Virus record (IMG/VR): IMGVR_UViG_3300036853_000321 | Coordinates: 1 to 46,375 of that record | Length of the DNA: 46,375 nt | Origin: a virus | Direction: 5' to 3' (one strand) | Shown here: piece by piece, positions 5,830 to 34,692 of the stretch | Layout: each line of letters opens with the position of its first letter | How positions within the stretch are numbered: position 1 is the first letter of the stretch | The notes under the pieces: model-generated | The model's input: the letters and a program-made list of their open reading frames with translations, nothing else | Database searches by the model: none | Told to the model about the DNA's origin: nothing | Made by a program: the position numbers and the translations under genes

Positions 5830-6452
5830 CTGCGACTCCACGCAGGCGTGGGCCCAGGACGCTCTGGCTTGCGCTCTGTTGCGTTTTCCCTGCCGGCCCG
5901 GCCTCTCATGCCGGCCGGCAGCGGGACGAGCGTATCGGGGCCCTCCTGCTCTCCGCGGCGGCGGTAGTACTCCGCGTATTCCTGCCAGTGCGCCTGGTCC
6001 TGGTGGTGGCGGAGGATGTCGAGGCGGCAGTCTGTGATGCCGGCGGCACCCGGCTGCATCACCCGGTAGCGCGCGCGGGAGGCCGCCTCCTCGTCCGCTG
6101 CCTTCCGGGCGTTCCCCAGGCACACCTCGACCATCTCGGCGTTGCTGATGGGCGTGGGGTCGCCCCAGTACTTCGTCGTGCCGGGCTTCGGCGCCTCTTC
6201 GATCCTCGCGGGCTGGTGGTAGTGCAGCACCACCGGCTTGGCGAGCTCGCGCAGCTTCGCCACCGTCGGGAAGTACTTGCACACCTTCAGCGCCTCGCGC
6301 CCGCCGGCGGCGAGCTTCTCCCACGGGATGTCCTCGAGCCCCACGAGGTAGGCGTCGACCATCAGGTCCGTCACCTCGATGCGGAACGCCGACCCCAGCG
6401 TGAAGAGCATCCCCCCCAACTGGTCGCGGAGGTCACTTCGTGCTGAAAGCAT
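5826..6452 (-). CDS. Helicase-loader-like replication protein
   Basis: This is a 208-residue protein. Its N-terminal ~80 residues follow the pattern of the G39P/loader-and-inhibitor family: a long hydrophobic helix, VDAYLVGLEDIPWEKLA, AL-x-VCKYFPTVAKLRELA. These proteins deliver the host or phage replicative helicase to the initiator at the origin. The rest is charged and flexible. The ATG at 6452 follows GAGGAGGAC; the frame overlaps the initiator gene by 20 bases. Position directly after an initiator carrying origin-like iterons fits a role in replication. No helicase gene is visible, so the host helicase is probably used. Confidence 0.6.
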   Translation of the reverse strand: MLSARSDLRDQLGGMLFTLGSAFRIEVTDLMVDAYLVGLEDIPWEKLAAGGREALKVCKYFPTVAKLRELAKPVVLHYHQPARIEEAPKPGTTKYWGDPTPISNAEMVEVCLGNARKAADEEAASRARYRVMQPGAAGITDCRLDILRHHQDQAHWQEYAEYYRRRGEQEGPDTLVPLPAGMRGRAGRENATERKPERPGPTPAWSRR

Positions 6453-7182
6453 CGCGTCCTCCTCGCTCCATGAACCGCCGCACGGCATCCGCGCTGCGCG
6501 CCTCCTGGGCCGACAGCAGCGGGGCCTGCGATCGCTCGTCCTCCCAGCGCCTCTGGTTCAGGTACGTGGTCGGGTGCGGGATGTACGCGCCGCCCTCGCC
6601 GACCCACTCCGGGCTCTTCGTCTGCCAGGCCAGCGCCGCCAGGACCGTGGCCAGCTCGGGCTTCGCGCTCGCCCAGGCCAGCGCCGCCTCCAGCTTCTTG
6701 ACCTTGCGGGGGTAGGCCGCCCAGAACACCAGGAAGTCCCCGCTGTACGCCGCCTCGACCTGGCGCCGCTTGGCCAGGGCCGCCCGGCTCATGGAATTAC
6801 AACTCCTGATCCTGAGCTTCGAAGGGATCAGACCGGCCGGATCAGGCTCAGACCGGAACAGATCCAGAGATCCGGATAGAACCCCCCCTACCCCCCCATC
6901 AACCAGTAGGGTCGAATCGTCAACTAATAGGGTCGATTGTCGATTACCAGGGTCGTTTGACCCTGGTGATAGGGTCGTTGACCCTGGTGATTGATGGAGG
7001 TCGCTACTACCAGCAGGGCCGGCGGCCCCATTAGCAGGGTCAATAACCCTGGTCACCTTCTCGTCCGTGAGCCAGCGGGTGCCGCACTTGTAGCACCTTC
7101 GCCTACGCTCGATGACGTTGCCCACGGTGGGCCGGCTGTCGGTCACCGAGTTGCCCCTGGAACTGCAGCGCGGGCAGTTCAC
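6433..7182 (-). CDS. Replication initiator-like protein with N-terminal zinc ribbon
   Basis: This is a 249-residue protein. Residues 1-45 form a four-Cys ribbon (C3-x2-C6 and C30-x2-C33, with VTDSRPTVGNVIERRRRC) that closely resembles the NrdR-type zinc ribbon. A low-complexity middle (STLLVDDSTLLVDGG) is encoded by the iterons. The C-terminal part, FLVFWAAYPRKVKKLEAALA, then WVGEGGAYIPHPTTYLNQRR, matches the typical C-terminus of phage replication initiator (O-like) proteins. The GTG at 7182 overlaps queE by GTGA. Like lambda gene O, it seems to contain its own origin. Initiator identity rests on the C-terminal pattern and the iterons. Confidence 0.65.
   Translation of the reverse strand: MNCPRCSSRGNSVTDSRPTVGNVIERRRRCYKCGTRWLTDEKVTRVIDPANGAAGPAGSSDLHQSPGSTTLSPGSNDPGNRQSTLLVDDSTLLVDGGVGGVLSGSLDLFRSEPDPAGLIPSKLRIRSCNSMSRAALAKRRQVEAAYSGDFLVFWAAYPRKVKKLEAALAWASAKPELATVLAALAWQTKSPEWVGEGGAYIPHPTTYLNQRRWEDERSQAPLLSAQEARSADAVRRFMERGGRDAFSTK
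6905..7057. repeat. Iteron block, putative replication origin
   Basis: AGGGTCG starts at 6908, 6929, 6949 and 6971, i.e. every 20-22 bases, with a fifth related unit at 7036. The last three are dyads: CCAGGGTC-GTTT-GACCCTGG (6947-6966), AGGGTC-GTT-GACCCT (6971-6985) and AGGGT-CAATA-ACCCT (7036-7050). The block is more AT-rich than its surroundings and lies inside the initiator gene. A homopyrimidine run is found at 6881-6900. Confidence 0.65.
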
Positions 7183-7814
7183 TTGACCCCCCAGGTCCGG
7201 TGCGCCTGGGTGGACAGCGCCCACCTCGCCCCGGCGCTGCCGGTGGCCAGCAGGCCGATCACCTCGGACAGGTTGTTGGTGCCGTCCAGCGCCGTCATCG
7301 GCTGGAGGTATCGGTGGAAGAACGTGGTCTCGCGGTCGAGCGCCGTGATCTCCTGCCAGCCCCAGCCGGGCCGCACCACCACCTTGAGCGTGTGCCCGGT
7401 GCGCTGGGGGTAGTTGAGCTCCTTGGGGCTCACCGTCAGCCAGTCGACGGGGCAGCCCTCGATGGCGCGCACCCCGCTGGTCTCCAGGTGGACGCGCATG
7501 CCGTAGGAGTGCAGGAGGTCCACGAGCGGCACGAGGTCGTGGTCGGTCGGCTCCCCCCCGGTGATGACCGCTATCCCGCTGGCCGCCATCTGCCAGGCCC
7601 GGCGGGCGAGGTCAGCTGCGGTCACCCGCTCGGTCATCTTCCACGGCGCCTCGTCGCACTCCTTGCGGATGGCGCAGCCGCTGACCGAGCAGCCGGCAAG
7701 GCGGATGAACACCATTGGATAGCCCACGAAGTGCCCCTCGCCCTGCAGGCTCTTGAACACGGCCGAGACGGGGTAGGCGTACGCCTGGGCGGCGCCGATG
7801 ATGTCGTCGCTCAT
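7179..7814 (-). CDS. queE: QueE-like 7-carboxy-7-deazaguanine synthase (radical SAM)
   Basis: This is a 211-residue protein. SAVFKSLQGEGHFVGYPMVF and IRLAGC form the typical QueE N-terminus; TGGEP (85-89) is the radical-SAM glycine motif, and HLETSG and DWLTVSPKE (to residue 132) are family hallmarks. QueE rearranges carboxy-tetrahydropterin to 7-carboxy-7-deazaguanine, using S-adenosylmethionine and a 4Fe-4S cluster. The cluster cysteines are spaced C42-x4-C47-x5-C53 rather than the canonical CX3CX2C, which is odd. ATGA overlap with the DpdA-like gene and GTGA overlap with the initiator place it in one operon. No queC, queD or folE is present, so earlier substrates must come from the host. 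Confidence 0.8.
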   Translation of the reverse strand: MSDDIIGAAQAYAYPVSAVFKSLQGEGHFVGYPMVFIRLAGCSVSGCAIRKECDEAPWKMTERVTAADLARRAWQMAASGIAVITGGEPTDHDLVPLVDLLHSYGMRVHLETSGVRAIEGCPVDWLTVSPKELNYPQRTGHTLKVVVRPGWGWQEITALDRETTFFHRYLQPMTALDGTNNLSEVIGLLATGSAGARWALSTQAHRTWGVK

Positions 7815-8404
7815 GTGGTCGCCTCGAGGAACGAGCGGAGCTGCGCCCGCTGCTTGCGGTGGAACCAGCCGCTGCCGTCGACCGAGACGGCGCCAGCTCG
7901 CTCGCACATGGCCAGCCGGTCGGGCCCGCTCACCCGCCCGACGTGGACGCGCCCCGGGAACCTCGCGCACCAGGGCTGGACCGCCGCCAGCTTGAACTGC
8001 GTTGAGCCGCCGATGAACAGCATGCACTCGTCGTCGGGGACGTCGTCGAAGGTCATCCCGTCCTGGCAGACGAACGCCGGCCGGAACCCGCGGGCCACCA
8101 CCTCGCCGCGGTACTGGTGCCAGGACTCGATGGTCCGGTCACGCAGCATCATCACGTCGGGCACCGCGGCCCACACCGGCTGGGTGCCGGACCTGGCCGC
8201 CCAGTCCAGCAGCTTCATCCAGGGGGCGGGGTCGAACTCGACGTTGCGCTGCCAGCACCCGTAGGCGCCGTTGTCGAGGGCGTAGGGCAGGAAGGGGAAG
8301 GGCCCGCGCTGGCCACCTGGGGAGTAGAGGTGGCCGAGGCGGCCGACGTGGCGCCCGGCCATGTAGCCGAACTCCATGCTGGTGTGGTTCGAGACCATGA
8401 CCAT
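7811..8404 (-). CDS. dpdA: DpdA-like 7-deazaguanine DNA transglycosylase
   Basis: This is a 197-residue protein. Motifs LDNGAYGCW, PDVMM, FVCQDGMTFDDVP, CMLFIGGSTQFKL and HVGRVSGPDRLAMC followed by AGAVSVDGSGW match my recollection of phage DpdA proteins, relatives of tRNA-guanine transglycosylase that exchange guanine in DNA for a 7-deazaguanine base. The neighbouring queE gives strong contextual support. It starts at the ATG at 8404 in a TGATG overlap with the methyltransferase gene and ends with an ATGA overlap into queE. It is shorter than bacterial DpdA, as phage forms tend to be. It could in principle be a different TGT-fold enzyme, but the pairing argues for DNA modification. Confidence 0.7.
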   Translation of the reverse strand: MVMVSNHTSMEFGYMAGRHVGRLGHLYSPGGQRGPFPFLPYALDNGAYGCWQRNVEFDPAPWMKLLDWAARSGTQPVWAAVPDVMMLRDRTIESWHQYRGEVVARGFRPAFVCQDGMTFDDVPDDECMLFIGGSTQFKLAAVQPWCARFPGRVHVGRVSGPDRLAMCERAGAVSVDGSGWFHRKQRAQLRSFLEATT

Positions 8405-9432
8405 CACGTGCGTTGCCTGACGCCTCGGGCCAGCTGCTCGACCAGGGTCACGAAGGCGAACGCCGCACACTGCGGGACCGCGGCGTTGCCGAGGAGGCGA
8501 AGTTGCGCGGGTCGTGAAGTACGTCTGTCCATCCATCGGGAAACCCCATAAGGCACTCGACGAACCGCGGGTTCAGGACCATCCCACTCCCCGATGCGGT
8601 CGGGGCCTGGCGGGAAACGGTGGACGTACCCCGCGTCGCCGCGTCCGTCAGCGAGACCCCCGGCTTCGCCTTCGACCCGGGGAGGTTGCGCGACCCCGAG
8701 CTGCGCCCGTCCCCCGCCGTCGGGGTGGGCCAGCGCCTGGCCATCGTCCGCGCCACCTCTTCCTCCAGGTCCCCGTGGCCGCCGTTCGCCTGCCTGGCGT
8801 GCGAAGTCCCGCTCACCGTTCCCGGGTACGTCTTGACCGTTCGTCCTGCCCGCTCTGCCCGCGGCGTCGGCCACATCGAGCGCGCGACTCTCTCCGGAAG
8901 CGAGTCGTCTCCCGCCGGTCTGCGGTCGAGGTCGCGACAGCCCTTCCAGTCCCGGGCGAGTGGTGTAGGCCAGGAGGAAGAGTCGGTTGCGTCGGTGGGG
9001 AGCACCGACCTGGGCCGCGGAGAACAGACCCCACTCCGCATCGAACCCGAGACGGGCAAGGTCGGCCAGCACGTCACGCAGTCCGCTCGTCCGCAACCCT
9101 GGCACGTTCTCGACGAACACGGCGCGGGGGCAGAGAACCGCAACGACTCTTGCGAACTCGGGCCAGAGCCAGCGCGCGTCCGCGGTGCCCTGCTTCTTGC
9201 CGGCAACGCTGTGGGGCTGGCAGGGAAAGCCCCCGCAGATGAGGTCCACAGCTGGAGCTGCACCATCGATGTCCCTCACGTCCTCGTAGCAAGGCACCTC
9301 GGGCCAGTGGTGGCGCAGCACCGCGCGCGCCGCCGGGTCCTTCTCGCAGAACCACCGCGTGGGCCCGTGGCCCAGGGACTCCATCGCACGCTCGAGGCCG
9401 CCCACCCCGGAGAACAGACTCCCGACGGTCAC
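8404..9432 (-). CDS. Cytosine-5 DNA methyltransferase (Dcm-like)
   Basis: This is a 342-residue protein. Motif I is TVGSLFSGVGGLERA, motif IV GGFPCQPHS with catalytic C71, motif VI FVENVPGL (108-112), motif VIII QVGAPHRRNR (141-150), and motif X LLGNAAVPQ near 313-321. It should transfer a methyl group from S-adenosylmethionine to C5 of cytosine in a specific sequence, protecting phage DNA. The GTG at 9432 overlaps the upstream stop by GTGA. The target-recognition part (roughly 8530-9010) is also open in a second frame that itself reads like the recognition domain of other phage methyltransferases. No partner endonuclease gene is visible. Confidence 0.85.
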   Translation of the reverse strand: MTVGSLFSGVGGLERAMESLGHGPTRWFCEKDPAARAVLRHHWPEVPCYEDVRDIDGAAPAVDLICGGFPCQPHSVAGKKQGTADARWLWPEFARVVAVLCPRAVFVENVPGLRTSGLRDVLADLARLGFDAEWGLFSAAQVGAPHRRNRLFLLAYTTRPGLEGLSRPRPQTGGRRLASGESRALDVADAAGRAGRTNGQDVPGNGERDFARQAGERRPRGPGGRGGADDGQALAHPDGGGRAQLGVAQPPRVEGEAGGLADGRGDAGYVHRFPPGPDRIGEWDGPEPAVRRVPYGVSRWMDRRTSRPAQLRLLGNAAVPQCAAFAFVTLVEQLARGVRQRT

Positions 9433-9863
9433 GCCGCCACCCGCTGCGCCTGCACCTTGGGCGAGGTGCGGATGCGCTCCGCGGTGGCCACGAGCTCGGG
9501 CCGGCGAGACATGGCCGTGAGCGACTGCAGGACCGTGGCGTGGGACCGGCGCAGGTGCCGGCCGATTGACTTGAGGGTGTACCCCGCGTCCCGCAGCACC
9601 CGCATGGCCACCCACCGGGCGTGGACGAGCTCCTTCTCCCGGCGGCGGCCGACCAGCCCAGGCCGCGTGACCTCCATGGCCACGCAGGTGGCCGCCAGGA
9701 TGGCGCGCGCGAACGGGTCGAGGTCGTGGGACCGGCGCTGCTCCTGCCGGTCCCGCTCGAGGACCGCCCACATCGCGTCCTCGTAGTTCTCCGTGTCGAG
9801 GAAGACCGCCCAGAACAGCCGCAGCCGCTCCCGCACCCGCTCCCTGCCGGCGGCGACGGTCAT
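9429..9863 (-). CDS. DnaA domain IV-like DNA-binding protein
   Basis: This is a 144-residue protein. Residues about 80-115 (ARWVAMRVLRDAGYTLKSIG, then RHLRRSHATVLQSL) reproduce the helix-turn-helix of DnaA domain IV, where RQIAMYL and GGRDHTTVLHA normally stand. The ATPase domains of DnaA are absent. It may bind DnaA-box-like sites to regulate replication or transcription; such truncated forms occur in phages. The ATG at 9863 has GGGGAGG six bases upstream and an ATGA overlap with the preceding gene; the stop overlaps the methyltransferase by GTGA. DNA binding is well supported, the function is not. Confidence 0.65.
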   Translation of the reverse strand: MTVAAGRERVRERLRLFWAVFLDTENYEDAMWAVLERDRQEQRRSHDLDPFARAILAATCVAMEVTRPGLVGRRREKELVHARWVAMRVLRDAGYTLKSIGRHLRRSHATVLQSLTAMSRRPELVATAERIRTSPKVQAQRVAA

Positions 9864-34122: not shown

Positions 34123-34692
34123 TTACGTTACGGGCTTTACGAGGTGCATCCCCCGGCCGGCGTCGTCGGCCACGAATACAATCTTCATCAGCTGCTCGGG
34201 CCCCCACAGGCGGGTGTCGAGGTCGAAGCTGCCGCGGATGTCCCGCACGTTCAGCAAGAGGACGTCCTCCATGCTCCGCACCGTCCCGCCGGTGAACCAG
34301 TGGACCGGGGTTTCCTCGCCGCTGTATTTGCCCCACTTCACGATGTCCCCGATCAGGACGCCGTGGGAGCGCATCCAGTCCCGCGCCGTGCAGCCAGCCT
34401 TGAGCAGCAGCCCCAGGTTGATCACCTTCTGGTGGGCGATGGTGCGCCCCTCGTCCACGTCCAGGGTGTGGTCGGGGATCACGATGCCGCCCTCGGTCTT
34501 CTGCTCCTTGGCCTGGAGGCGGTAGACCATGACGTCGTCATCTGTCGGCTGAAACGGGATCTCGGGCAGCCGCAGCTCGCGCGTGCGCGTCGCCAGCAGC
34601 AACGACGACAGCTGCTCCAACTCCTCCCAGCGTGCGAACTCTTGCTTGGTGTACGCCGCCGTCGGCACGAAGTACTCGCCCAGTTCGCTCAT
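34123..34692 (-). CDS. GroES-like co-chaperonin
   Basis: This is a 189-residue protein. Residues 54-75 (VMVYRLQAKEQKTEGGIVIP) contain the GroES mobile loop with the hydrophobic triad IVI at 70-72 that docks on GroEL. VLIGDIVKWGKYSGEE (112-127) and MEDVLLLNVRDI (141-152) match the VKVGDxVLxGKYxGxE and EDDILAV core of Cpn10. It is longer than the usual ~95 residues, with an N-terminal extension and an insert after the mobile loop. It could replace host GroES so that GroEL folds a phage capsid component, as T4 gp31 does. ATGA overlap with the gene upstream. Confidence 0.75.
   Translation of the reverse strand: MSELGEYFVPTAAYTKQEFARWEELEQLSSLLLATRTRELRLPEIPFQPTDDDVMVYRLQAKEQKTEGGIVIPDHTLDVDEGRTIAHQKVINLGLLLKAGCTARDWMRSHGVLIGDIVKWGKYSGEETPVHWFTGGTVRSMEDVLLLNVRDIRGSFDLDTRLWGPEQLMKIVFVADDAGRGMHLVKPVT

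Follow-up and report, generated by a model that had tools for sequence, protein, structure and literature searches.

A QueE-like protein and a compact DpdA-like protein encoded by overlapping viral genes: a probable cassette for 7-deazaguanine modification of phage DNA

Which function can be assigned to a viral gene pair in which a queE-like gene overlaps the gene for an unusually small DpdA-like protein? The question is raised by IMG/VR virus record IMGVR_UViG_3300036853_000321, a linear sequence of 46,375 bases with a G+C content of 68.4% that was analysed over its whole length (hereafter the window) and that, given its integrase, RecT, exonuclease and terminase genes, probably stems from a temperate tailed phage. 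We propose that the two genes are likely to form a compact cassette that makes a 7-deazaguanine and swaps it for guanine in the phage DNA, shielding the latter from restriction. Direct support comes from the gene identities, the fold, the conserved candidate catalytic residues, the gene overlap and the family-wide linkage to supply genes; from these we infer catalysis, DNA rather than tRNA as the target, the identity of the base, the reliance on the host and the protection against restriction. The elements concerned are as follows.

7179 to 7814, minus strand: QueE-like radical-SAM protein, putative CDG (7-carboxy-7-deazaguanine) synthase, 211 amino acids; ATG at 7814, stop at 7179.
7811 to 8404, minus strand: compact DpdA/TGT-like (TGT, tRNA-guanine transglycosylase) putative DNA-guanine transglycosylase, 197 amino acids; ATG at 8404, stop at 7811.
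7811 to 7814, minus strand: ATGA overlap of the DpdA-like stop and the queE start, indicative of translational coupling, from direct reading of the sequence.

Both open reading frames of the ATGA-coupled pair named in the original prediction are thus in place, with the overlap legible at 7814-7811. A GAGG precedes the QueE start, and an internal ATG at 8398, the position kept among relatives, is an alternative start of the DpdA-like gene. Both frames display the codon GC of real genes (approximately 0.7/0.54/0.87 at the codon positions), and the order of the pair is kept in the related loci L011, L012, L094 and L095, hence the arrangement is not due to chance.

The downstream product can be placed among the QueE enzymes, as had been deduced from its TGGEP and SPKE motifs. 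It matches the phage QueE family PHROG_2076 (6.7e-24), the NCBIfam QueE models (best 5.3e-24, TIGR04508, 85 bits) and, by sequence, E. coli QueE (PDB 6nhl, 4.5e-22). The predicted model (pLDDT 88.9) has the radical-SAM QueE fold, with PDB 4njg detected at 9.2e-12 and a TM of 0.73 using Foldseek, where the top six structures are QueE of B. multivorans, E. coli and B. subtilis. TGGEP is located at 85-89 and SPK at 129-131, and the predicted cluster cysteines, C42, C47 and C53, are kept throughout the clade.

For the compact protein, the assignment stems from fold and profile comparisons. Its AlphaFold (AF2) model (pLDDT 95.8) adopts a TGT-like (beta/alpha) barrel: in the Foldseek ranking of PDB entries DpdA 7ui4 comes first (1.5e-5), followed by many TGTs with a query-normalised TM of up to 0.66, and the matches in a viral library are annotated queuine tRNA-ribosyltransferases and a phage nt-1 protein. 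Comparison with the profile of larger phage DpdAs yields an E-value of 6.6e-5 (probability 64%) and pairs LDNGAY (D44) with LDSGAF, and SVDGSGW (D176) with SCDSSSW. D44 and D176 are therein the candidate catalytic residues, assuming chemistry as in TGT. The QDG, FIGGST and HVGR motifs by which a DpdA-like protein was originally suspected are present, and D44, N45, P82, D83, T91, W95, Q114, G132, G133, K138, H154, R157, S174, D176, G177 and G179 are invariant in 54 aligned sequences, the invariance of FxGG...K being partly imposed by the search motif. The profile of the compact family misses the larger DpdA of phage Bipper, and in Sonali and R29Z, both of which also possess a larger DpdA, it picks up a single gene each; the compact proteins therefore represent a separate subfamily. 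Its sole PHROG match is PHROG_15826 (4.9e-25), of unknown function. A sequence search of the PDB returned nothing useful, the profile comparison with E. coli TGT gave a spurious match only, and matches to eIF4E (E 0.1-0.4) were dismissed as chance.

A link to 7-deazaguanine use, the central claim of the original prediction, is provided by the gene neighbourhood across many phages. While a viral scan with the single sequence found no relatives, an alignment-based scan of IMG/VR identified 487 sharing one conserved motif, 80 of which were retrieved, and pathway genes around them were detected with profiles trained on relatives. In 33 of 50 non-redundant viral loci, queD, queC or queE is present within 1 kb on the same strand (queD alone in 15, queE alone in 7, queC alone in 3 and combinations in 8). 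Within 8 kb, 42 pathway genes were detected; every one is situated within 1 kb, with none in the other 472 kb and none on the opposite strand (binomial p ~2e-33, with dependence among genes of one locus and a sample made up of the loci closest to the window); in L049, a redundant locus outside the 50-locus count, pathway genes are 4-6 kb away. The tree places the window together with L011, L012, L095 and L094, all with queE, and with L013, which has queD (SH-aLRT 96%), and at least 14 changes of partner type occurred across the family. The linkage and the varied partner genes thus define a subfamily of compact DpdA-like proteins whose precursor-supply partners are interchangeable. In nine distant loci, including those of mycobacteriophage Majeke, Arthrobacter phage Aoka and Rhodococcus phage ReqiPine5, a transporter of the PF02592 type, a family that carries preQ0/preQ1 (PMC11130926), adjoins or is near the compact gene, as confirmed against Pfam for five of the nine. 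Three PF02592 (YhhQ-type) genes lie beside or near orphan compact genes (Majeke, Aoka, ReqiPine5).

L005, 4436 to 4993: PF02592 (YhhQ-type) transporter.
L010, 3086 to 3613: PF02592 (YhhQ-type) transporter.
L177, 8432 to 8965: PF02592 (YhhQ-type) transporter.

How, then, would the precursor be made? Phages with a complete preQ0 pathway have all four synthesis enzymes, FolE, QueD, QueE and QueC, and the window holds only part of this set. The lack of queC noted at the outset is borne out within the window, where no QueD/PTPS or FolE match was detected either. Profiles for QueC, QueD and the transporter trained on relatives also found nothing in the window, hence divergence alone does not explain the missing queC and queD. 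As L011 and L094, the nearest relatives, likewise have queE and no queC, PTPS or FolE on their contigs of 35 kb and 53 kb, the QueE-only set is not merely the result of truncation. With queD, queC and folE not found, the host must complete the pathway and must supply at least CPH4. The absence of queD and folE, the separate subfamily, the partner switching and a coupled cytosine methyltransferase (see below) go beyond the original prediction.

We propose the following mechanism. QueE would turn host CPH4 into CDG, lifting the flux at that single step, and host QueC would probably take CDG on to ADG and preQ0. The 197-residue enzyme would then swap guanine in the phage DNA for the 7-deazaguanine base; D176 would carry the covalent intermediate and D44 would be the acid/base. 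The modified DNA would be shielded from restriction by analogy with CAjan, where phage DpdA inserts preQ0 and restriction is blocked (PMC6884629). Phages 7-11 and MED16, with DpdA alone, contain only traces of dADG (PMC6884629, PMC8306585) and Orion contains none, and the presence of a DpdA gene is therefore no guarantee of heavy modification. For the base itself, preQ0 or ADG obtained via host QueC is the most likely identity; these are preferred over CDG because relatives use queC or a transporter.

Several observations weigh against the proposed cassette. The QueE-like protein, at 85 bits for TIGR04508, does not reach the NCBIfam equivalog cut-off of 240 bits, and its function is therefore deduced from fold, motifs and linkage. 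Its cluster loop, GC-SVSG-C-AIRKE-CDEAPW, has the unusual spacing C-x4-C-x5-C, while radical-SAM enzymes are usually recognised by CX3CX2C (PMC8124187). However, this spacing is common to the whole clade and to the QueEs adjoining other compact DpdA-like genes (L041, L044, L069 and L100), and is also found in L002/L003, where the QueE gene has queC and a larger DpdA as neighbours, suggesting that the variant is probably functional. The compact protein has no match in Pfam, NCBIfam (TGT models included) or PADLOC, and it is therefore filed as DpdA-like, in a subfamily of its own. It lacks the Cys-rich zinc site (no CxCxxC) and the C-terminal part of TGT, and non-TGT TIM barrels with nearly as good E-values are mixed among its Foldseek matches. 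Of the 48 non-redundant genome loci of distant relatives, 37 are without a linked pathway gene, and several actinobacterial carriers of the compact gene have no clear QueC. Finally, the host search by terminase and integrase gave no host, and hence no host pathway to inspect.

CDG is a negatively charged base, and a phage that inserts it directly, with QueE and the compact enzyme generating 2'-deoxy-7-carboxy-7-deazaguanine independently of QueC, is conceivable, albeit rather unlikely. It would agree with the absence of queC from the window and from both contigs of its nearest relatives, with queE as the only supply gene retained in the window's clade, and with phage Bipper, in which only queC is missing and for which the same was flagged (PMC6884629). 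However, the same enzyme family is paired with queC or a preQ0/preQ1 transporter in relatives, and the same QueE clade accompanies queC and a larger DpdA in L002/L003, which speaks for a base made via QueC. In the nearby sister L013 queD takes the place of queE, and the contigs may be incomplete. We only tentatively entertain the wider notion that in the window's clade two genes, QueE and a minimal 197-residue transglycosylase, would suffice for CDG in DNA without QueC and that the compact enzyme in general would act as a portable writer, using several pathway intermediates depending on its partner gene.

It is improbable that the pair instead boosts queuosine in host tRNA, with QueE lifting the precursor and the small TGT-like protein targeting tRNA. 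TGT and DpdA share a fold and the compact model matches both, and Hutinet et al. suggest a tRNA benefit for phages with pathway genes and no DpdA (PMC6884629), but the DNA enzyme DpdA outranks TGT among the fold matches, the protein is devoid of the C-terminal part of TGT, and in isolated phages the compact gene has DNA replication genes and a larger DpdA as neighbours. Even less probable is a different role for the compact protein as a divergent TGT-like factor, e.g. as specificity partner or in counter-defence against CDG-consuming systems, with QueE as separate cargo. Sonali, R29Z and SHIN8 do carry the compact gene on top of a larger DpdA, CBASS type IV uses CDG in immunity (PMC13279940) and in many distant relatives no pathway gene is linked to the compact one; against this, the candidate catalytic residues are all invariant, most pathway-linked loci showed no larger DpdA in the vicinity and PADLOC gave no match. 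A cell-division inhibitor role of QueE (PMC11142719) was rejected, being known for enterobacterial QueE only and leaving the conserved DpdA-like partner unexplained.

Upstream of the proposed cassette, a third gene belongs to the same operon.

8404 to 9438, minus strand: C5-cytosine DNA methyltransferase, PF00145; provisional start.

The TGATG at 8406-8402 joins its stop codon to the start of the DpdA-like gene, and the methyltransferase may at most be a candidate for a part in base modification. We note that L100 likewise has a methyltransferase in one uninterrupted row with queE and the DpdA-like gene, and that in L070 a methyltransferase is separated from the compact gene by 3 bp. PAPS-reductase-like PP-loop genes adjoin compact genes at further loci and possibly add another modification step; such neighbours include many Paraburkholderia/Caballeronia loci.

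L111, 8620 to 10425: PAPS-reductase-like PP-loop gene.
L177, 9676 to 10593: PAPS-reductase-like PP-loop gene.
L055, downstream of the DpdA-like gene: PAPS-reductase-like PP-loop gene.

The compact gene occurs alongside a larger DpdA in Sonali, R29Z and SHIN8. In the latter, an Escherichia phage, it is split over two overlapping frames (L009, 4720-5312) and apparently broken, with the larger DpdA intact, and in phiG7 it is in two pieces. Elsewhere in the window, positions 6893-7053, within the open reading frame at 6433-7224 (minus strand), hold repeats of about 20 bp at a spacing of 20-21 bp with an AGGGTCGWT core and inverted copies; the product of this frame has an NrdR-like zinc ribbon and a replication-initiation match, and the repeats are possibly an origin inside the initiator gene. 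A small protein with a DnaA C-terminal DNA-binding domain (PF08299) is encoded at 9429-9863 (minus strand), and a protein weakly matching a GroES co-chaperonin PHROG (3.4e-7) at 34126-34692 (minus strand), adjoining the connector gene.

Phage 7-deazaguanine modification, DpdA and QueE are already known; the compact subfamily as a defined group, the switching between partners, the link to transporters and the spacing of the QueE cluster cysteines are new as far as the searched literature shows. Our data define a large and mostly unannotated family of minimal DpdA-like enzymes that is tied to the 7-deazaguanine pathway by gene neighbourhood, and suggest that phages join one supply gene (queD, queE, queC or a transporter) to the host pathway, a scheme from which the base can be predicted for each phage. 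An adjacent PF02592 transporter may explain orphan DpdA-like genes in some mycobacteriophages and in other phages whose hosts lack the pathway, and the very small enzyme is offered for mechanistic and sequencing work.

Among known systems, phage DpdA of the 9g/CAjan/Rosebush type and bacterial DpdA (7ui4) share the TGT-like barrel and the linkage to the preQ0 pathway with the compact protein, and D44 and D176 of the latter align with DSGAF and SxDSSSW of phage DpdA. The compact protein, however, has 197 residues as compared to about 270-430, is related to the larger DpdAs only by profile-profile comparison or fold, and may co-occur with one in a single phage. Proteins annotated 'DpdA-like tRNA-guanine transglycosylase' in isolated mycobacteriophages and Arthrobacter phages are 31-34% identical to the window protein, and those of mycobacteriophages Majeke and Ksquared and of Arthrobacter phages Sonali (gp81) and Aoka (gp40), at about 32% identity, belong to the same family by tblastn and profile. 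In Majeke and Aoka the compact gene is near a PF02592 transporter rather than queE, and in Sonali near a larger DpdA and queC. Mycobacterium phage Bipper (dpdA-queD-queE-folE) likewise combines DpdA and QueE without QueC, with possible CDG insertion noted (PMC6884629), but has a full-size DpdA and, in addition, QueD and FolE. With established QueE (TIGR04508/TIGR04322, PDB 4njg/6nhl/5th5), the window protein shares the fold, TGGEP, SPK and three cluster-loop cysteines, which in the former are spaced CX3CX2C or CX14CX2C and in the window C-x4-C-x5-C.
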